A stretch of DNA of 64,000 bases, taken from assembly GCA_000023185.1 (NCBI GenBank), contig CP001622.1:1922001-1986000 (forward strand). Direction: 5' to 3'. Source of the DNA: Rhizobium leguminosarum bv. trifolii WSM1325 (lineage in GTDB: Bacteria; Pseudomonadota; Alphaproteobacteria; Rhizobiales; Rhizobiaceae). The notes beneath the pieces are model-generated. The model saw nothing but the letters and a program-made list of their open reading frames with translations, ran no database searches and was not told where the DNA came from. The translations under genes were made by a program, and so were the position numbers. Shown one piece after another: positions 38,028 to 48,232 of the stretch. Positions within the stretch are counted from its first letter, which is position 1. Each line of letters starts with the position of its first letter.

Positions 38028-38094
38028 GTCAGTGGATGGGGCCATGCGTGTCGTGATCTTGCCCCGTTGAGACAATCCGTTTCAGGAGGGCAGC

Positions 38095-38164
38095 ATCCGG
38101 CCATTCGCCAACGAGCGATCTTGCGGCGTTCATCCATATCGATCTGGGAGTAGGTGCGCTTCAT
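38095..38164 (-). pseudogene. N-terminal scrap of an IS30-family transposase
   Basis: The minus strand from an ATG at 38164 reads MKRTYSQIDMDERRKIARWR, the usual opening of IS30-type transposases. After MAG the similarity stops; the expected helix-turn-helix is missing. GAACGAGAC just upstream is a poor ribosome site. It marks an older insertion beside the present pair of elements. Confidence 0.55.
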
Positions 38165-38245
38165 GTCTCGTTCCTTGCAGGGATAAACCGTTGTTATCTA
38201 TTGCAAGTCGCACTTCATCCTTGAACCCACCCCGGCTACATACAT

Positions 38246-39910
38246 TGTGGCGGGGAAGTTGGAATGTCCGTTTGTGTGCAAAGTAGAAGTGTCACTTTGG
38301 GCGCGTCTTCAGCTATTTAGAAATGCGACACTCGGCATGTCCACTTGCGCTGAGGCAAGCCCCCGACCAGACCGGCTGGACCCGGTTGCAAGGGAAGGGA
38401 GGGGGCGGGTGAGATGCTCCCTTCGGCTTTAGCTTTGACAGTTGGAGCAGCCAGTCATTCCGCCGCATCGAGGTCAGAGAGTGCTTGTCGCCGTCGGGCA
38501 ATGACGGCGGGATCGTTCATGAAATCCGTCTTCCGACCCGGCTTGCGGCCCCGCGGCGTGTAGCCATTCTTCTCGCTGTTGGTCCTGACCTTGGGCGCCG
38601 GCAGTTGCTCCTGACGCTCCTTGATATAGGCCAGGACATCGCCGAGCCGCTTGTTCTCGGTGATCGCCGCATGCGTCACCCGCTGGTCCTGGTCGAACGT
38701 CTTGTAGGGCAGGGAATGACCTTTCCAGCGCACGTCCAGCCGGCCATCGGCATAGGCATAGGTCTCGACATAGCGGCCAACCAGGCCACGCGTCACATCA
38801 CTCTCTTCCAGCATGATCCGCTGGCGCTCGAACGAGAACGTCAACTGCGCCCCGACATAGCGCTGCTCGCGCTTGCACAGGATCTCGCTGAGCCGGTCCG
38901 GCGCCAGATTCAGTGGCCGATGCAGGTCTTCCGACCGGGCAGGGGCAATCGCAAAGCGGGCATTGTAGTCTTCCATGAAGCCAGGCAAAAACGCATTGCC
39001 TGCCGCCATGCCGGAAATCCCCGCCAGCCGCAGTTCCTTGACCAGTCGATCCTGCAACGTCCGGTTCATCCGCTCGACACGACCCTTCGCCTGGCTCGAA
39101 TTTGCGCAAAGAATCTCGATGTTTAGCTCACAAAGCGCCCGCCCGAACTGGGTCATGCCCTGGCCACCCTTGGCCTCCTTCTTCGCCACCCGGAACACCG
39201 AATGCTTGTCGGAGTAGAAAGCCACAGGCGCGCCGTGATCGCGCAGGTAAAGCGCCAGCGCCTCGAAATAGCTGAAGGCGCTTTCCGAGCGCACGAACCG
39301 CAACTGCATCAGCTTGCCCGTCGCATCGTCGACGAACACCAGCAGCGAGCATGGATCACCGCGGTCCTCGAACCAGCGATGCTCGGACCCGTCAATCTGC
39401 ACCAACTCGCCATAGGCTTCACGCCGCAAGCGCGGCTGATGAAACGTCCGCCGCTGCTTGCGCGAGAGCCACAGGCCCGCATCCACCATCCAGCTGCGCA
39501 ACGTCTCACGCGACACCCGCAACCCATCGCGCTCGGCAAGCTTCTCGGCCGCCAAGGTTGGTCCGAAGTCTGCATAGCGTTCGCGAACCAACGTCACGGC
39601 GTAATCCCGAACACCGTCGCTGATCCGGTTGTTCGACGGTCGGCCGATCGCCTTGTGCCGGATCGACGCCGCACCACCCGTGTTGATCCGCTCCAGCAGA
39701 CGACGCACCTGGCGCGTACTCAGATCAAGCACATGTGCCGCCGACACCATCGTCATCCGGCCGGCGATCACATTCGATAGAATCTCGATCCGCTGCAGAT
39801 CACGCTCGCTCATCGCAATCAGTCCCATCCGCAATCTCCCAGGTCATCAAACAAGGGGAGAGTGACATTCCAACTTTGCAGAAACAGGACACTTTAACTT
39901 TGCGGCTACA
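38246..39910 (-). mobile_element. insertion sequence 1 of the tandem pair (ISNCY/IS1202 type, 1665 bp)
   Basis: Ends are TGT...ACA. The 24-base terminal repeats 38246-38269 and 39887-39910 (inverted) agree at 17 of 24 positions without gaps. Inside each end the motif AAGTTNNANTGTC recurs, as expected of transposase-binding sites. It is flanked by the direct repeat TACAT at 38241-38245 and 39911-39915. It carries one transposase gene and a roughly 130-base block (38308-38436) that is also found in the left end of the second element. It lies on the outer side, away from the Xer site, so by the order of nested repeats it arrived first. Confidence 0.85.
38455..39828 (-). CDS. ISNCY/IS1202-type DDE transposase of element 1
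   Basis: Transposase of about 457 residues starting MGLIAMSERDLQRIEILSNV, with GGGAGA before the ATG. An N-terminal helix-turn-helix (VSAAHVLDLSTRQVRRLLER) is followed by the RNase H-like core: Asp in GELVQIDGSEHRWFED, Asp in VAFYSDKHSVFRV, Glu in SSQAKGRVERMNRTLQDR. The C-terminus has the basic patch PRGRKPGRKTDFMNDP, also found in the second transposase. No frameshift or stop: the gene looks intact. The two transposases are clearly related but not near-identical. Confidence 0.92.
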   Translation of the reverse strand: MGLIAMSERDLQRIEILSNVIAGRMTMVSAAHVLDLSTRQVRRLLERINTGGAASIRHKAIGRPSNNRISDGVRDYAVTLVRERYADFGPTLAAEKLAERDGLRVSRETLRSWMVDAGLWLSRKQRRTFHQPRLRREAYGELVQIDGSEHRWFEDRGDPCSLLVFVDDATGKLMQLRFVRSESAFSYFEALALYLRDHGAPVAFYSDKHSVFRVAKKEAKGGQGMTQFGRALCELNIEILCANSSQAKGRVERMNRTLQDRLVKELRLAGISGMAAGNAFLPGFMEDYNARFAIAPARSEDLHRPLNLAPDRLSEILCKREQRYVGAQLTFSFERQRIMLEESDVTRGLVGRYVETYAYADGRLDVRWKGHSLPYKTFDQDQRVTHAAITENKRLGDVLAYIKERQEQLPAPKVRTNSEKNGYTPRGRKPGRKTDFMNDPAVIARRRQALSDLDAAE

Positions 39911-40108
39911 TACATTGTCAAAGCTGGTTAGATGGGCGACGCTTTCAGCCGGTTAGAAACGCGACACTTGCGCTTCGGATTAGCCGCCGATCCGACCGGC
40001 TGGGCCGGGTTGCAAGGGAGGAGCGGGGGCGGGTGATGACACTCCCTTCGGCTTTAGCTTTCTCACTGGCAATTGTTCTTTTGTCGCTCGATACTCGCTG
40101 GCACTTGC

Positions 40109-40876
40109 ATGGCGCAGGATGGGGATCAAAGCCGCACGATGCTTCCGGAAATCAACCTGCAGGGGCACGTCGATGTCGCCGCGCTGTCACCACTTCTTCG
40201 CGGCATGCTTCTTTCGGTTGCCTATGCTGACGGTGAGGGTGGCATAGGATTGACTGCGACCGGCGCCATGAACCGCAAGTTCGTGCATTGGGCCGCTGTG
40301 CACTTCCTCTGGCCAAGCTTCACAGCCGAAGACCTCTACAGCATGAACAAGGTGCTCAATGAAAGCGACATGCCGCCGCTTTGGGTCGTGCGCGACATGG
40401 CCCGTCATCTGAAACTTCTTCGCCGAAAAAAGGACGTGCTGCTGCCAACCAAACGCGGCCGGGAGTTTTTGGTGGACCCGCAAGCCTTCTTTGATCTGGT
40501 CGCCACGGATTATCTCTATTCGTATGTCCACGCCACCGAGCGGGAAGAGGAGGTCCGAGCGCGGTTACGCTGGTGGCGCCTATTCCTCAATCTTCTCAAT
40601 ATCGCGGCCAGAGAAGGTTGCACGCCAATGGAGGTTGTGGAGATCCTCTATCCAGACCTGGCGCCTCTGTCGGACACCGAAATAACCCTGGAAGCCTGGA
40701 AGTTGAAATCCGATCTCCAGCACGGCGTCTTTCGACGCTTATGCTGGCTCGGCTTGCTCTATGAGGCACGAGAGGGGCTCACTCTTCTCCAGGACGGATC
40801 CTTCCACAAGACGCCACTTTGGGCAGCCTGCCTGCAGTTGGAATCGGATACGCAAAGCGACATCGGCGTGCACTGA
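40109..40876 (+). CDS. passenger gene of insertion sequence 2, possible winged-helix protein
   Basis: A 255-residue protein from MAQDGDQSRTMLPEINLQGH; a TTG further upstream is possible. It is inside the element and converges on the transposase. The stretch LWVVRDMARHLKLLRRKKDV followed by LLPTKRGREFLVDP looks like a winged helix with its wing and resembles the C-terminal region of proteins labelled plasmid pRiA4b ORF-3 in rhizobia. The second half is helical (WWRLFLNLLNIAAREGCTPM) and ends with KTPLWAACLQLE. No catalytic motif is visible. It may regulate the element or serve the host; neither is shown. Confidence 0.6.
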   Translation: MAQDGDQSRTMLPEINLQGHVDVAALSPLLRGMLLSVAYADGEGGIGLTATGAMNRKFVHWAAVHFLWPSFTAEDLYSMNKVLNESDMPPLWVVRDMARHLKLLRRKKDVLLPTKRGREFLVDPQAFFDLVATDYLYSYVHATEREEEVRARLRWWRLFLNLLNIAAREGCTPMEVVEILYPDLAPLSDTEITLEAWKLKSDLQHGVFRRLCWLGLLYEAREGLTLLQDGSFHKTPLWAACLQLESDTQSDIGVH

Positions 40877-40882
40877 CGAACT

Positions 40883-42307
40883 TCATTCCGCTGGCTGCCT
40901 CATCAACGCCTTCTGCCTTTTGGCAATCACCTCCGGATCATTCATGAAGTCCGTCCGCCGGCCAGGCTTGCGGCCACGCTTCTGATAACCATTGCCCTGG
41001 CTGCCATCGGGAATACCGAACATATGATCCGTCTGGCCGGTGCGGCGAGGGCCGCTCTTGCTGCGCTGCTGTTCCCGCCCAGCCTGCAGCTCGGCGACGA
41101 TGGAAAGCATGTCGTCGAGACGCTTGTTCTCGACAACCTCTGCCCGGTGGACCGACCGCAATGTATCGAAGGTTCTGTAGGGCAGGGTGAAGCTCTCGTG
41201 CATGATCTCGAGGCGGCCGTCCGGGTAGTCGCAGACAACGACCTTCTTACCCGCCAATGGCCTGGAAATCTCGGTCGGATCGAGAATGAACAAGACCTTG
41301 TCGTAACGGAGCGTCAGCGACTGCGACAGTGTGCGGACTTCCTTCCGGCACATGGCGCCATCGAGATTCTCATGGTCGGCCAGCGGTCGGTGCATGTCCT
41401 TCGGATTGCGCGGTTGCTTGCCGAACCGCGAATTGAAATCCGCAATGAACTCAGGCGCATAGGCATTGGCAGCTTCGATCGTATCGATGCCGCGAAGCCG
41501 CATCTCCTTCACCAGCCGATCCTGCAATGTCTGGTTGGCGCGTTCCACACGGCCCTTGGCTTGCGGAGTGTTGGCACAGATAATGTCGATGTTCAGCTCA
41601 TAAAGCGCACGACCAAACTGCGTCAGGCCGCTCGTCCGGTCTTTCTCTGACGCATGCGTGCTACGGAAAACCCCATGTTTGTCGCTGTAGAACGCGAGAG
41701 GTTTGCCCCATTGCTGCAAATACGCCTTAGTCGCATGCAGATAGTCGAACGTGTTCTCTGATCCGGCGAACCGCAGGTGCAGCAGCTTGCCGGTCGCATC
41801 GTCGATATAGACGAGCAGGGCGCATTTGGGGCCGCGGTTCTCGAACCACCAGTGATGCGAACCATCGATCTGCACCAGTTCGCCAAAGCAGTCGCGCCGG
41901 CCGCGTGGCTGGAAAACCCGTTTCTTGCGTTCCCGGCGCGAGATCCAGATGCCGGCCTCGGTCATCCATTGCCGCAGCGTCTCCTTAGCAACAGAGATCC
42001 GGTGCAGCTCGATCAGCTTCTCGCGAGCCAGCGTCGGGCCGAAATCCAGATAGTGCTCGCGGATCAGATCCAGCGCTGCATTGCGAAACTCCTCGCTGTG
42101 GCGCCGGTTGCTCGGCTGCGATCGTTTCTTGGAAACGAGGCCGGCTGGACCATCCCGGTCATAGGCCTGCAGCAACCGATGGACCTGACTTCGACTGAGC
42201 CCGAGCAGTTCGGCAGCCTGGACAACGCTCAGGCGTAGGTCACGGATCTTCTGGATGACTTCAAGGCGATGCAACTCTTTCTGCGACATGGTGATCATAA
42301 AGGACAT
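40883..42307 (-). CDS. ISNCY/IS1202-type DDE transposase of element 2
   Basis: Transposase of 474 residues starting MSFMITMSQKELHRLEVIQK, with GGAG five bases before the ATG. Helix-turn-helix: VVQAAELLGLSRSQVHRLLQ. Catalytic residues: Asp in GELVQIDGSHHWWFEN, Asp in LAFYSDKHGVFRS, Glu in TPQAKGRVERANQTLQDR. The C-terminus shares KRGRKPGRRTDFMNDPEVIA with the first transposase. Intact reading frame, so the element may still be active. Its 5' end points to the Xer site. Confidence 0.92.
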   Translation of the reverse strand: MSFMITMSQKELHRLEVIQKIRDLRLSVVQAAELLGLSRSQVHRLLQAYDRDGPAGLVSKKRSQPSNRRHSEEFRNAALDLIREHYLDFGPTLAREKLIELHRISVAKETLRQWMTEAGIWISRRERKKRVFQPRGRRDCFGELVQIDGSHHWWFENRGPKCALLVYIDDATGKLLHLRFAGSENTFDYLHATKAYLQQWGKPLAFYSDKHGVFRSTHASEKDRTSGLTQFGRALYELNIDIICANTPQAKGRVERANQTLQDRLVKEMRLRGIDTIEAANAYAPEFIADFNSRFGKQPRNPKDMHRPLADHENLDGAMCRKEVRTLSQSLTLRYDKVLFILDPTEISRPLAGKKVVVCDYPDGRLEIMHESFTLPYRTFDTLRSVHRAEVVENKRLDDMLSIVAELQAGREQQRSKSGPRRTGQTDHMFGIPDGSQGNGYQKRGRKPGRRTDFMNDPEVIAKRQKALMRQPAE

Positions 42308-42454
42308 GACGACTCCGACCGCTCATGGTCTTGACCAGGCTGAAGATCGTCATCCTTGCTCCCAACGTTGGCTTTGACCAGTGCGTCGAGAGGCGAGACT
42401 GTCGCATCTCTAACTGGCCCAACTGTCGCATTACTAATTAGCCCTTACATACAT

Positions 42455-42482
42455 GTATCGCATAAGATAGATTATGGAACAT
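42455..42482. other. Xer recombination site, proposed chromosomal dif
   Basis: Arms GTATCGCATAA (XerC side) and TTATGGAACAT (XerD side) flank the 6-base centre GATAGA. Against E. coli dif (arms GGTGCGCATAA and TTATGTTAAAT as I remember them) each arm matches at 8 of 11 positions, including the inner CGCATAA and TTATG that contact the recombinases. The layout of 11-6-11 is exact. Support from context: the two insertion sequences stop five bases from the XerC arm, the known target preference of some IS1202-family elements, and GGGNAGGG octamers switch strand here. Confidence 0.75.
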
Positions 42483-42670: not shown

Positions 42671-45600
42671 TCAGGTTTGATTGAGAACAGTCAGCATGCC
42701 TCCGAAATCGATCAAGGAACCCTTCTCTTGCAAGAGCACAATCCGGGACTCCACCAGTTCCTTTAACTGACTACTCGTTGACTTGAACCCAAGCCCGCGC
42801 GCGACCGCATTCACCGCCTGATCTACGGTGGCCCCGAGGCTCGTTCTGATGACTGTGATAAGCCCTTCGTCAATTTCCATCGGCGGCAGCATTTCGATCC
42901 GACGCAGGCTGAGAGACGTGACGCCGCTACGATCTCTGAGCGTGATGTCCTTGTCCGGCCAAAGCAGAAACTCTCCGTCGCGCACGATCTCCTGAGAATT
43001 CTGGGCGATCGTGATCGCCGCGCCGACATGGGCATCGATCCGGTTTCCCGCCCGCTGAAGACCCCAGGCCGACCTGATGCGGGTGACGACCTCGTCCTGA
43101 TGCACTGGTCCTTCTGCTCCGACCGTTTGCTTTACCAGCGCGATCACCACGCCGATCGGCGCTTCGTGAAGTTCGCCTACGATATTCGGTCGCAGCACGG
43201 CCTCCTGATACAAGGTTGCGCTCGAAATTTCGTCGACGATAACCGGCTGCAGACCAATCTCTGTAACGTCCGCACGTTCGATAGTGACGACCTCGACCGG
43301 TACCGCTCGCCTCGACAGGTGTTCCTCTGTTCCCGACCTGACGTCGGCCTTGGCCCGCTCGATGGCGGCAACGAGGCGTTCAAGTTCCGCTTTGGGCCTT
43401 TGGAACCAGTCTGCACTCCAGATGCGATAGATATTCCAGCCATGATCCTCGAGGACCGCCTGTCGAAGCCGGTCTCGGTCACGAGCCGAACGCGAGTCAT
43501 GGTATGCGGCGCCGTCGCATTCGATCCCCAGAATATATCTGCCCGGTATCTGCTCGTCGGCCACCGCCAGATCTATGAAGAACCCGGCGATTCCAACCTG
43601 CGGATGGACCTGATAGCCCCTCTCCTTAAGCGCAGCCATGACCTGTTCTTCAAAGACGCTGTCCATCCCACGGTCGGTGCGCTGGGTCATCGAAAGCCTG
43701 CCCGTCCGAGCGTAATGGAGAAACAGTTTGAATGCGAAGACGCCTTTGCCTTTTCCACGTTCGAGATCGATGTCCTCGTCGGTGATCGAAGCGTATACCT
43801 CGCAGCGCCGCTTCGCGCGGCTGATAAGAACATTGAGACGACGTTCGCCTCCCTCGGCTCCCAACGGCCCGAAGCGCATGCTCATTGGCGCGCCACTTGG
43901 CCCCTTGGCATAGGCGACGGAAATGAGGATGACGTCGCGCTCGTCGCCCTGAACGTTTTCAAGGTTCTTGATGAAGAAAGGCTCGCTCGGATGCGAGTGG
44001 AAGAACTCCTCGGTTTCTGGGTTGAGGCGTCGCAGCAGTTCCAACTGGTCCTGGATCTCTCGACGCTGCTTGATGGAGAATGCCGCGACGCCGAGCGACA
44101 GGCTCGGCGATTGAAGCGCATGCCGTATGATCGCTTCGGCGACGACCTTAGCCTCTACCTTGTTGACGCCATCCTCGAAGACGCCGCCAGGCACATGCTG
44201 AAAGCGGAGGCCCATGCCCGCCTCGGCCGTATAAGGACTCGGTACAATGAAGAGCTTGTTATCATAGAACTGGCTGTTTGAGACCGCGATCAGAGACTGA
44301 TGGCGGCTTCGGTAGTGCCATCGGAGCATCTTTTCCGGAAGGCCTCGGGCGGAAAAGAGTCCCAGGATACTTTCAATATCTGACACCTGAGCGCCGTCCT
44401 GGGCGTCGTCGTCATCCGACGTGCTGGAGGTCATTTTCGAGAAGAAACGGGTCGGCGGCAACTGACGCTCGTCCCCAACCACGACCACCTGTTTAGCGCG
44501 GGCTACCGCTCCCAACGCGTCTACCGGCTGAATTTGACTGGCTTCGTCCATGACGAGGAGATCGAACCGCAGAAGACCGGGCGGCAGGAACTGTGCTATG
44601 GAAAGCGGGCTCATCATGAAGACTGGCTTAAGGGCCTGTATCGCTACGGACGCGCGCTGCATGAGCTGGCGGATCGGCATGTGACCGCGACGGCGCGCCA
44701 TCTCTCCCCTAAGGACTCCGACAGGACCGATCCCACTGACGGCAGGAATTCGTTTGTGGTGAGCGCGGACGACCTCAAGACGGGATAGCGCCATTCTGCT
44801 CCGGTCCAATGTCGCGAATTCGTTCACGAGTCGCCCGTGCACCTCGCCGTCGAAACGAGATAATTCGGGGTCGGCGGAATGCTGATGTCTGAGGATCCCT
44901 TCGTAGATCGCCATCTCCACATATGGCACGACGTCATCCGGCTTCACCCGCCCATCTTCGAGGCGTTCAACAACAAGACCGACGCCGGCGTTCGCAGCGT
45001 CTTCCGCTCTTCCGCGATAGGCGGCCCATTTGGATAGGTGCTCCTCGGTCTCGACCCATTTCGCGAGCTTTTGCGCGACCGTCGCAAGCTCCGTCTGTCC
45101 GATTTCGTGCGCGCCGAACACAATCGACACATCCGCCTTCAGGAAGCCGAGCAAAGCTTGGAGATCGTGTTGAAGGATCGCTCCTCTCGCCAATGCATCG
45201 CGAGCTTTCACAGCCACCGCGGGGCGGTCGGATACGCGCGAGCTTAGCAGGCGGATGTCGGAGTTGTGTGAAATCCACTCAGTCGTGCGAGACAGCAGCG
45301 ACCAGTCCGACTCCGTCCCCTTCCAAAGCGGACCGAAGGAAGCCCGGCCGAGGGAGTCCAGCCGCTCCAGCGTGGATTTCAGGCCGCGCGCCAATGCGAG
45401 CAGCTTCAATAGCGCAAGACGGTGTGCGTTGGTTTCCGGAACAGAGCGGACCAGCGTCAGGAAGACCTTGTGGGCATCGGCGATTTCGCGGGCGAATTGC
45501 GATGTCTGTGTAAGCGAGACGCCATCTGGGCCTGGAGCGTCCGAAAACAAAACTGACGCCTTCTCACCAAGATCCTTCCATAGACTGAGCAGAAGACGTC

Positions 45601-48232
45601 GCGACTCGTCCAGCAGCGCCCTCACCTGCTCACAACGGCCCGCTACCGACGTCCTGTCGGAGAGACGGCCGGCTATCAACCGTGCTTCGACACCGACACC
45701 GCGCAGGCTTCGCATCCAAAGTACGAGGTTTTCAAGCGGCTTCGGGTCCGACTTTTCTCCGCGCCAGTCCGCTCCGAAAGCAGATCTGCCGAGGCTGTCG
45801 CCGTCCTTGATCGCAGCGCGGGCGCTCTTGCCCTTCTGGAGAAGATCAAGGATTCGAACAGTTTCGTCGGGCGAAGTCTCGTTGGGCATCACGCTGCGCA
45901 GAAGCGCCTTTGCCTTGCGCCACTCACCGCTCATGAACCTGAAGAGACGCTTGCCATGGACGGCGACCGCTGCCCGCACCTGCATAAGGTCGATATCCCA
46001 GGCCTGCTCAGAGATCTTGCCTTCAAGCTCGGCACGAATACGCCGAAAGTCTCCCACGGCCTCAGCGAGATCGGAGGCCTGGTCAAGGCCTCGTTCCCAG
46101 ATGGCGGCAACGAAGGCGTCGGGGCTCGCGTCCGGGGCTTCGGCTACGCGCTGTCCGATGACGATGAGCCGATCAATCGATGCCAAGGTCGGAGAAGCAT
46201 TGACGCCGAGCAGGGTACGCAACGCGCCCGCGCCCGCCAGGAAGCGCGGCAGCACAGACGCAAGCTGTTCGATCGTGGCAAACCCGCTTTGTGAGAAGTC
46301 TGCAGAAAGACGGACGAATTGCGTGGCAATCGGCTCCGGATCAGATTCCCATGCGGACGGCGTCATGCGGGCCGCGACTTCGGCCGCGTATGTCGAGAAT
46401 TCGGCGCCGCCAACGACAAGATCGCGTACCCGATCCAGTTCGGTCGCCCATGCGTCGTTTGCCAATGCCTCCGAAGATATCTCCGAAGGACACGAGGCGA
46501 CCCTTTCCGCGGTCGACGCGATGTCCATAAAGTTTGCCAGCGAGTGAGGCGATGATAGTTCGAGCGTCTGCGATACGTCATCCATCTGGCTGCGCAATTC
46601 AGCCAGTTCCGTGGCCGCCGTTTTCAATCTCGTCGTCAGACGTTCAAGATCGAGCGGGGTAACTCCGGTAAGCCCGACGCCGTACCACGGATGGTGCTTT
46701 GGCAGGCCGATGTCCTCGATGCGTTCAGCAAGTTCCGTCAGCAGCGCCTTCGCCCGCTCGCGCACCTCCGGCGTCCAGTCCGCAGCAACCGGCAGATCGA
46801 TATCCGATGGAGCCATGCCCTCGCGACGCAGCCTTGCAAGGTGTCCCATGACTTGGAACGGGGAAAGCGAGTAGGGTTGATACACGCGGTGAATGCGTGC
46901 CGGATGGGCGTTAAGTAAATCGCGTGCGTCCGTGAGGCGCTGGTCGAGCGCACTGCCGGATTCCCCTTTGGGCGTGCCGAGCTCCCAAGTATGCTGCAGC
47001 TCTGCGAGGACGGCGCGCTTGTTCGCCTTGTTACTATGGAGTTCGAGGCAGGCTTCACCGACGCTCGCCTGGTCAAGGCGTCGTTTCACGACCTCGAGCG
47101 CCGCCATCTTTTCGGCTACGAACAGCACCGTCTTGCCGTCGGCGACCGCCGACGCGATAATGTTGGCGATTGTCTGGGATTTTCCCGTGCCCGGCGGGCC
47201 TTGAATGACGAGGTCCCTCCCTCGCCTGACTTCGTGGATCGCGGCCGTCTGCGAACTGTCGGCATCGACGATATGCGTCATCTCGGAAGGCGAAATGTGC
47301 TCGTCGATCTTGACGTCCTCGCCAAGCAGCTGTTCGCCGCCCTCGAAGCCATCGGAAACCAAACCGATGATGAGTGGCAGCTCGGTGAACTTGGCATCCT
47401 TAGGCCAGAGCGTGGGATCAAGGTCTCTGTACATGAGGAATTTGGCGAAGCTGAAGAAACCGAGCACGATGTCGTCGGGTTGGACGGACCAGTTTGGCTT
47501 CATCGAGATGCACGCCGCCACCTTCGCGGCGTAGTCCTCGAATGTGAAGTCGTCGCTCGCCTCGAACGCCGGCATTGAGATCTGATGGACACGGTCGAGA
47601 AAGGCCTCGAGGGAGAGGTTTGAAGCGAGGTCCTCCTGGCGCGCTCGAAGCTTGAAGCGCTCGGCTGCGCTGCCACGCTCCAACGACACCGGCACGAGGA
47701 TGAGCGGTGCGTAGCGGACGTTCTCCGCATTGTTGGGATCGATCCACTTCAGAGTGCCCAGCCCGAGGAACAGGATATTCACCCCCTGCTCTTCCTCTAA
47801 TGTCCGGGCATCGAAGTAAAGGTCCAGCAGACGCTTCTGGAGAGCATTTGGCGTCATGCGGGTCTGGAGCTTGGTGTCGCCATGACGGACAAGCCGACCG
47901 TCGCCGTCGCGCTCATCATCGTCCGGGAGCGCGAGTTCGATCAGTTCGTCACCGTCGCCGTCATCCTTGGATTCCCGCCCCTTCGCCCCCGCCAGGAAAG
48001 TCATGGTCCTTCCATCGGTCACAAGGATCCGAAACACTTCGGACGACTTCTCGTCGACAACGTCGATGGTTTTCGCACTTTTCGAAAAGCGGGGAACGTT
48101 CAAAAGGCGGTTGCGCGCAGAAAGGTCAAGTAGTTCGGTTCTGGCCTTTTCGATCTTGGCTTCTACGGACAGATTACTTTGAAAGATGGACGTTTCATTC
48201 TGCTCAGATGCGCCGTCTGCCATGTCGATCAT
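42671..48232 (-). CDS. Hhe-type antiphage protein: DUF4011, SF1 helicase, Vsr-like nuclease, DUF3320
   Basis: Very large protein of 1853 residues. The N-terminus has the DUF4011 signature TELLDLSARNRLLNVPRF. An SF1 helicase follows: Walker A QGPPGTGKSQTIANIIASAV near residue 345, Walker B LLVMDEASQIQPVDALG near 1223, motif III GDERQLPPTRFF, motif IV/V region LRWHYRSRH and VQGDERDVILISVAYA, motif VI RRLNVLISRAKRR near 1465. About 870 residues of mostly helical insert separate Walker A and B. Then comes a Vsr/DUF559-type nuclease (FEEQVMAALKERGYQVHPQV, ILGIECDGAAYHDS near 1567) and a C-terminal DUF3320. This order matches the single-gene system called Hhe in defence-island surveys. It lies next to the proposed dif, a typical spot for acquired genes. 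The target and trigger are unknown. Confidence 0.85.
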   Translation of the reverse strand: MIDMADGASEQNETSIFQSNLSVEAKIEKARTELLDLSARNRLLNVPRFSKSAKTIDVVDEKSSEVFRILVTDGRTMTFLAGAKGRESKDDGDGDELIELALPDDDERDGDGRLVRHGDTKLQTRMTPNALQKRLLDLYFDARTLEEEQGVNILFLGLGTLKWIDPNNAENVRYAPLILVPVSLERGSAAERFKLRARQEDLASNLSLEAFLDRVHQISMPAFEASDDFTFEDYAAKVAACISMKPNWSVQPDDIVLGFFSFAKFLMYRDLDPTLWPKDAKFTELPLIIGLVSDGFEGGEQLLGEDVKIDEHISPSEMTHIVDADSSQTAAIHEVRRGRDLVIQGPPGTGKSQTIANIIASAVADGKTVLFVAEKMAALEVVKRRLDQASVGEACLELHSNKANKRAVLAELQHTWELGTPKGESGSALDQRLTDARDLLNAHPARIHRVYQPYSLSPFQVMGHLARLRREGMAPSDIDLPVAADWTPEVRERAKALLTELAERIEDIGLPKHHPWYGVGLTGVTPLDLERLTTRLKTAATELAELRSQMDDVSQTLELSSPHSLANFMDIASTAERVASCPSEISSEALANDAWATELDRVRDLVVGGAEFSTYAAEVAARMTPSAWESDPEPIATQFVRLSADFSQSGFATIEQLASVLPRFLAGAGALRTLLGVNASPTLASIDRLIVIGQRVAEAPDASPDAFVAAIWERGLDQASDLAEAVGDFRRIRAELEGKISEQAWDIDLMQVRAAVAVHGKRLFRFMSGEWRKAKALLRSVMPNETSPDETVRILDLLQKGKSARAAIKDGDSLGRSAFGADWRGEKSDPKPLENLVLWMRSLRGVGVEARLIAGRLSDRTSVAGRCEQVRALLDESRRLLLSLWKDLGEKASVLFSDAPGPDGVSLTQTSQFAREIADAHKVFLTLVRSVPETNAHRLALLKLLALARGLKSTLERLDSLGRASFGPLWKGTESDWSLLSRTTEWISHNSDIRLLSSRVSDRPAVAVKARDALARGAILQHDLQALLGFLKADVSIVFGAHEIGQTELATVAQKLAKWVETEEHLSKWAAYRGRAEDAANAGVGLVVERLEDGRVKPDDVVPYVEMAIYEGILRHQHSADPELSRFDGEVHGRLVNEFATLDRSRMALSRLEVVRAHHKRIPAVSGIGPVGVLRGEMARRRGHMPIRQLMQRASVAIQALKPVFMMSPLSIAQFLPPGLLRFDLLVMDEASQIQPVDALGAVARAKQVVVVGDERQLPPTRFFSKMTSSTSDDDDAQDGAQVSDIESILGLFSARGLPEKMLRWHYRSRHQSLIAVSNSQFYDNKLFIVPSPYTAEAGMGLRFQHVPGGVFEDGVNKVEAKVVAEAIIRHALQSPSLSLGVAAFSIKQRREIQDQLELLRRLNPETEEFFHSHPSEPFFIKNLENVQGDERDVILISVAYAKGPSGAPMSMRFGPLGAEGGERRLNVLISRAKRRCEVYASITDEDIDLERGKGKGVFAFKLFLHYARTGRLSMTQRTDRGMDSVFEEQVMAALKERGYQVHPQVGIAGFFIDLAVADEQIPGRYILGIECDGAAYHDSRSARDRDRLRQAVLEDHGWNIYRIWSADWFQRPKAELERLVAAIERAKADVRSGTEEHLSRRAVPVEVVTIERADVTEIGLQPVIVDEISSATLYQEAVLRPNIVGELHEAPIGVVIALVKQTVGAEGPVHQDEVVTRIRSAWGLQRAGNRIDAHVGAAITIAQNSQEIVRDGEFLLWPDKDITLRDRSGVTSLSLRRIEMLPPMEIDEGLITVIRTSLGATVDQAVNAVARGLGFKSTSSQLKELVESRIVLLQEKGSLIDFGGMLTVLNQT

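Follow-up and report, generated by a model that had tools for sequence, protein, structure and literature searches.

The window analysed here is a stretch of 64,000 nucleotides (C1:1922001-1986000) from Rhizobium leguminosarum bv. trifolii WSM1325, whose genome comprises 7,418,122 bases in six contigs of 4,767,043 (C1), 828,924 (C2), 660,973 (C3), 516,088 (C4), 350,312 (C5) and 294,782 (C6) bases. A 28-base Xer-type site in the window is bordered on one side by a stack of insertion sequences (IS), which from left to right follow the order IS30 remnant, TACAT, IS-A, TACAT, IS-B, TACAT, dif. The features are as follows.

38080..38231, minus strand: IS30-family remnant (type C) with a terminal repeat and the first transposase codons; outer limit approximate
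38232..38240, plus strand: CCGGCTACA, probable end footprint of an older, lost IS1202-type element
38241..38245, plus strand: TACAT, outer target-site duplication of IS-A
38246..39910, minus strand: IS-A, IS1202-family element of 1665 bp, ISRel26-like by size, with TGT...ACA ends and TACAT on both flanks
38455..39834, minus strand: IS-A transposase, 459 aa (NF033594, 487.8 bits, cut-off 250)
39911..39915, plus strand: TACAT common to IS-A and IS-B
39916..42449, minus strand: IS-B, IS1202-family element of 2534 bp, ISRel10-like by size and layout, with TGT...ACA ends and TACAT on both flanks
40139..40876, plus strand: IS-B passenger open reading frame (ORF), about 245 aa (listed ORF start 40073)
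40883..42307, minus strand: IS-B transposase, 474 aa (NF033594 transpos_ISNCY_2, 506.5 bits, cut-off 250)
42450..42454, plus strand: TACAT, dif-proximal target-site duplication of IS-B, abutting the XerC arm
42455..42465, plus strand: XerC arm of dif, GTATCGCATAA; the IS lies on this arm's own side, as with the IS1202-family elements in PMC10132070
42466..42471, plus strand: central hexamer of dif, GATAGA, identical to the hexamer published for dif of M. loti and of B. melitensis I (PMC2731167)
42472..42482, plus strand: XerD arm of dif, TTATGGAACAT; TTATGGAA(C) in the order-level matches and in published Rhizobiales dif

Positions 42455-42482 consist of two 11-bp arms separated by a 6-bp centre, with a conserved XerD arm, which is the layout of a chromosomal dif. 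The original prediction had placed an 11-6-11 Xer site here, and its coordinates and arms are correct base for base (GTATCGCATAA / GATAGA / TTATGGAACAT). Each arm also agrees, as had been claimed, at 8 of 11 positions with the E. coli dif sequence.

In its sequence the site belongs to an already known type, the Rhizobiales dif, and presumably functions as such. Carnoy and Roten (2009) list this type for Agrobacterium, Mesorhizobium and Brucella, and their sites likewise have the 11-6-11 layout, an inner CATAA, a TTATGGAA XerD arm and a GATAGA or GATATA hexamer (PMC2731167). The window dif shares 24 of 28 positions with those published there for A. tumefaciens, M. loti and B. melitensis I and 23 of 28 with that of B. 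japonicum, the differences falling mainly in the outer bases of the arms. A 22-base core, allowing up to three mismatches, is present in 55 of 61 genomes, comprising all 37 of the same genus (our own counted) and 18 of 24 from other families of the order, compared with none for the reversed control.

In the genome itself, the 28-base motif with a free centre and at most three mismatches has three matches, one each on C1, C2 and C5, and the reversed-pattern control has none. The exact core CATAA-N6-TTATGGAAC occurs five times in the genome, once apiece on C1, C2, C3, C5 and C6, where about 0.06 matches would be expected by our own arithmetic; this whole-genome scan found no exact core on C4. 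One mismatch adds five further matches (C1:559078, C2:62202, two on C4 and one on C6), against one for the reversed control. The motif matches at dif-like sites are not due to chance. On C4 (C4:108062-108081 and C4:297724-297906), one-mismatch candidates were noted together with, far off, a fragment of an IS-B transposase. A better dif elsewhere had been named as a danger to the assignment, and an E. coli-type dif (CGCATAATNNANATTATGTTAAAT, at most three mismatches) was dropped as such a candidate with 0 matches in the genome.

A chromosomal dif was also expected to occur once and to lie at the switch of GC skew. The first expectation held, with a single exact core on C1 besides the one-mismatch match at C1:559078; as to the second, the skew changes weakly from -0.010 before the site to -0.022 after it, with no clear switch. 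GC skew was too weak a terminus test, and it was replaced by the orientation of GGGNAGGG, the FtsK-orienting motif KOPS as used for Agrobacterium (PMC12153318). In the sampled DNA, KOPS switch strand at dif on C1, C2 and C5. On C1, the sampled stretches from 1.2 Mb to the site contain 23 motifs on the plus strand versus 1 on the minus strand and those from the site to 2.66 Mb 3 versus 23, so that KOPS converge on the site; the counts inside the window are 10:0 before dif and 1:4 after it, and sparse samples far from dif gave 6:1 below 1.2 Mb and 4:9 above 2.66 Mb. Around the dif-type site of C2 the sampled counts are 31:3 and then 1:12, and around that of C5 they are 9:2 and then 1:9, with small counts (1:0 and 0:3) immediately beside the site. 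Because KOPS change strand at them, the corresponding sites on the plasmids C2 and C5 also appear to be terminus sites, which is consistent with published work on large replicons (PMC13342612). The chromosome also carries a XerD-like gene at C1:3959273 (337.2 bits, cut-off 329.6) and a XerC-like gene at C1:4036534, the latter with 315.3 bits, below the curated XerC cut-off of 335.15.

The 28-mer could instead be an accessory or plasmid-type Xer site, as might be suspected from a XerD arm unlike that of E. coli and from the near-identical sites on C2 and C5. We consider this very improbable, given that the site contains the sole exact core on C1, coincides with the change of KOPS, is conserved in the order and is of the same type as the published Rhizobiales chromosomal dif (PMC2731167). 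Every computable test except GC skew agrees with 42455-42482 being the dif of C1, and the site is very probably the dimer-resolution site of this 4.77 Mb main chromosome. On the other side of the site, adjoining the XerD arm, positions 42671-48232 (minus strand) encode an 1853-aa protein with DUF4011, AAA helicase parts, an MTES_1575 nuclease and DUF3320, for which the best PADLOC model is PDC-S37 (candidate phage defence, 1873 bits).

The neighbouring IS had been assigned to the IS1202 family, with its TACAT repeat directly against the XerC arm (42450-42454). Both statements are borne out, the first by the family model, the ends, the repeat, the orientation and the distance. Both IS-A and IS-B have the transposase type of the family and its ISAjo2 group (394-507 aa) and TGT...ACA ends with imperfect inverted repeats. 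Their target duplications fall within the 3-5 bp of that group, TACAT occurring three times on C1 and CATAT on both sides on C5, with C2 mixed, and in the window the IS end lies 5 bp from the XerC arm with the transposase start towards the arm. The two transposases share 47% identity and both begin on the dif side; compared with solved structures, that of IS-B has its top matches in TnsB, weakly (E 0.099). The original prediction did not include the second stacked element or the IS30 remnant, nor the corresponding sites of other replicons or the use of the same side of dif by a second IS family.

The closest published likenesses are ISRel26 (1634 bp, 457 aa) and ISRel10 (2528 bp, 473 aa, a transporter IS), compared with 1665 bp and 459 aa for IS-A and, for IS-B, 2534 bp and 474 aa together with an extra ORF; the likeness is one of size, transposase length, repeat length and extra ORF (PMC10132070). 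As described there, ISRel10 and ISRel26 resemble IS-B and IS-A in having a 5-bp target-site duplication and in lying 5 bp from TTATGGAAC-type sites. Harmer et al. (2023) called their targets very loosely pdif-like and not firmly dif (PMC10132070), whereas here two stacked elements have the chromosomal dif as their target. The ISAjo2/ISAba71 group of Acinetobacter likewise inserts on the same side, at 5 bp, with the left (transposase-start) end towards dif and TGT...ACA ends, and uses both chromosomal and plasmid dif as is the case here, but its dif consensus is different and we found no description of stacks for it (PMC10132070).

The passenger ORF of IS-B has 176 homologues at E <= 0.001; among the best 120 of the 176, database annotation gives PF27146/PF27262, and the genomes are those of Rhizobiales and a few members of the Roseobacter group. 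Our own Pfam and NCBIfam profile searches with this ORF gave no match. It is unlikely to steer the targeting, because IS-A lacks such an ORF and yet uses the same 5 bp.

There are three full copies of IS-B in the genome, all at dif, on C1, C2 and C5. The C5 copy is identical to that in the window and the C2 copy has one mismatch, and both adjoin dif; the dif-core sites of C3 and C6 have no IS end alongside. On C5 the repeat is CATAT on both sides, while on C2 the repeats are mixed, with CAACT outside and CATAT between IS-A and IS-B. A simple insertion history for C2 thus works only if sequence was later exchanged with the copy on C5, and the pattern of repeats suggests that the IS-B regions of C2 and C5 may have exchanged sequence by gene conversion between the dif-side copies.

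The placement of such elements beside dif recurs in the genus. A search with the IS-A transposase in 60 genomes of the genus gave matches in 36, from which 47 near-full-length copies were kept and partial rows left out. A dif core lies within 260 bp of the transposase start in 34 of the 47, and 32 of these 34 direct neighbours have exactly 5 bp between IS end and XerC arm, while the remaining two have 6 and 8 bp. Ten more copies stand behind another element, which is of IS1202 type in four (including both IS-A copies of our own genome), of the IS30 family in five, and the remains of both in one. Of the last three, one adjoins a degenerate site, another has lost its end by truncation and the third reaches the edge of its contig. 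In all, 44 of 47 copies are at dif or in a stack. In single genomes, a copy stands beside a dif-like site on 6 of 7 contigs (G023) and on 5 of 6 (G081). At another dif (L096, G001:C1), the IS-A-type transposase alongside contains a run of unreadable bases.

The elements also lie on one side of the site. In the 1 kb next to the XerC arm, 23 of 51 loci have a transposase of IS1202 type or of the IS30 family, compared with none in the 1 kb next to the XerD arm at 62 dif loci, among them the order-level ones. All 44 transposase matches near dif point away from it. This sidedness points to a target with polarity, namely the XerC side. In a census of 54 dif-like sites of the genus (51 from relatives and 3 of our own), we searched the 45 bp on the XerC side for an IS end, using end patterns written after inspecting, and drawn from, these same sequences. 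Where the centre is of chromosomal type (GATAGA, GACAGA, GATGGG or GATAGG), 38 of 40 sites have a recognisable IS end; the two exceptions look like decayed IS30 ends, one of them with a tblastn match. Sites with other centres had a recognisable end in 8 of 14 cases and none in 6, and in other families of the order none was recognised at the 9 sites examined.

Insertion within dif would damage it, and one could imagine that the elements insert at random and that the copies beside dif merely persist at a harmless spot, by selection and not by targeting. Such a scenario is hard to reconcile with a single distance (exactly 5 bp in 32 of 34), a single orientation (44 of 44) and the location of 44 of 47 copies at dif or in a stack, and we give it very little credence.

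A second family of elements occupies the same side, and many of the IS ends recognised in the census come from elements with IS30-family transposases. The remnant at 38080..38231 has 80% identity to an IS30 transposase over aa 1-25. Five IS30 transposases (types C, D and E of relatives) match the IS30-family model NF033563 with 260-284 bits (cut-off 80), which places the clade in the same family as E. coli IS30 (PMC9333248), and they have no blastp match to the IS1202-type transposases at 1e-3. Whereas E. coli IS30 goes to hot spots or to inverted repeats of its own (PMC9333248), the clade found here lies 13-15 bp from dif. At one dif (L128:985-4480), three different IS30 elements are stacked.

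To follow this clade, an alignment of the five proteins was scanned against contigs of one genome per species, and the best 80 of 564 loci (L143-L222) were analysed; by title these are mainly Rhizobiales and Rhodobacterales. The 80 loci are not independent, as several share a genome and L147 and L157 apparently equal L130 and L133, L157 being a query element, and since the query elements sat at dif, the set is a sample of their kin and not of IS30 at large. Seventy-two loci had at least 150 bp upstream and could be evaluated, the other 8 having too little upstream DNA. A strict dif core is present in 45 of these 72 (from the best 80 of 564), compared with 0.01 per set for shuffled flanks, and although distances of 8-20 bp were allowed, the XerC arm is 14 bp from the IS30 end in 23 of the 45 strict loci, 13 bp in 18 and 15 bp in 4. 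A plain scan for the core in the loci from the same best 80 of 564 found it in 47 of 72 on the transposase-start side compared with 0 of 66 on the other side. Outside the clade (30-38% identity), no dif core was found at 12 IS30 loci, one of which has just 102 bp upstream. A relaxed count (8 or more of 9 core bases in 55 of 72, an IS1202-type end next in a further 10, neither in 7; best 80 of 564) is not relied on, because its shuffled sets still yielded 5.1 dif and 2.2 IS1202-type calls each. Only the sequence from the last end-like match onward was shuffled, so that a real dif could survive intact.

The far terminal repeat of the IS30 element was found in 24 of the 45 strict loci and not in the other 21, and a 3-bp duplication at the exact boundary is present in 5 of the 24 testable loci (best 80 of 564), which is a weak signal. 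An IS30 end at 5 bp from dif, where GGCTACA is found, was considered and refuted by comparison of both ends and by many loci, the true distance being 13-15 bp; GGCTACA is flanking DNA and often the end of an IS-A-type element.

One might suppose that the IS30 elements are blind to dif and enter the ends of IS1202-type elements already beside it. In Rhizobium, entry at 13-15 bp often falls within the terminal 8-9 bp of such an IS-A-type element. The IS-A copies of several relatives stop at AACTTTGCGG, where an IS30 element has cut them and follows, and CGGCTACA is left beside dif where IS30 follows an IS-A-type element; one such IS30 element (L133) has CGG on both flanks. In several relatives the same 8-9 bases as CCGGCTACA lie between IS30 ends and the 5 bp adjoining dif, and the IS30 end, CCGGCTACA and TACAT at the left of the stack in the window may likewise be read as the trace of an IS30 entry into an IS-A-type end. 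Moreover, ACA lies exactly 5 bp from the XerC arm in 20 of the 45 strict loci (best 80 of 564), as an IS1202-type end would leave it, and IS30 is known to insert beside its own inverted repeats (PMC9333248). The remaining 25 of the 45 loci have no such ACA, yet their distance is the same 13-15 bp, and we regard entry guided by IS1202-type ends as unlikely.

The simplest reader of the target by the transposases would be XerC or the XerC-bound site, as Harmer et al. offered for their IS1202 group (PMC10132070). The transposases could also read the DNA of the dif arms directly, with neither XerC nor XerD involved, and the bases beside the elements are indeed most constant in the XerD arm and in the inner part of the XerC arm. 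On the other hand, the sites adjacent to IS30 elements in Rhodobacterales have different XerD arms (TTATGTAATAT, TTATGTTAATT) and varied XerC arms, so that the IS30 element follows the site and not one sequence, and the IS1202-family relatives in Acinetobacter use another consensus (PMC10132070). Neither point is decisive, and direct reading of the arms is a possibility that we hold to be real but doubtful.

The sites of dif type and their targeting by IS1202-family elements are of known kinds, and the IS30 clade at dif looks like the new part. A literature search with most subscription journals outside its range found no report of IS30 elements at dif, and the parts of PMC12445084, PMC12907356 and PMC9333248 available to us contain no description of it.

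These results lead us to propose, with high confidence, that the dif of C1 is served by KOPS and FtsK and that its XerC side is a landing pad, on which IS1202-family elements would form nested stacks and which the IS30 clade would enter from the same side. The proposal builds on the sites, distances, orientation and repeats observed, on the change of KOPS and on the exact core present once on five of the six contigs. The sites would function as dif, with FtsK led by KOPS to the XerCD site at 42455-42482, and the transposases would recognise XerC or the XerC-dif complex. An IS1202-family element would insert 5 bp from the XerC arm with its transposase-start end first. Because this duplicates the 5 bp abutting the arm, dif would be left whole and would immediately be a target again. 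The next insertion would shove the earlier element outward, giving a stack with the same 5-bp repeat between its members, so that the order of the stack would be the order of insertion. In the window, IS-A would have entered first and IS-B second, beside an older IS30-family remnant, and two rounds would be visible. Elements of the IS30 clade would enter on the same XerC side, 13-15 bp from the arm.

More broadly, it seems likely to us that IS1202 and one clade of IS30, between whose transposases no sequence kinship is detectable, came to find the XerC side of dif independently of each other, at 5 and at 13-15 bp. The replicon termini of Rhizobiaceae and Rhodobacteraceae would then be a shared safe haven, in which nested stacks form, the number of copies can keep pace with that of the replicons, and identical copies link the termini for exchange. 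The unusual targets described for ISRel10 and ISRel26 appear to be of the Rhizobiales type of dif and not decayed sites, a point left open in the published account (PMC10132070). The elements also offer a practical marker of dif in multi-replicon genomes, where one would locate the IS and read 5 bp further. Identical IS copies at several replicon termini provide homology for exchange between replicons, and, to judge from the IS30 clade, the Xer-dif complex may serve mobile DNA more generally as a signal for docking, much like attTn7.
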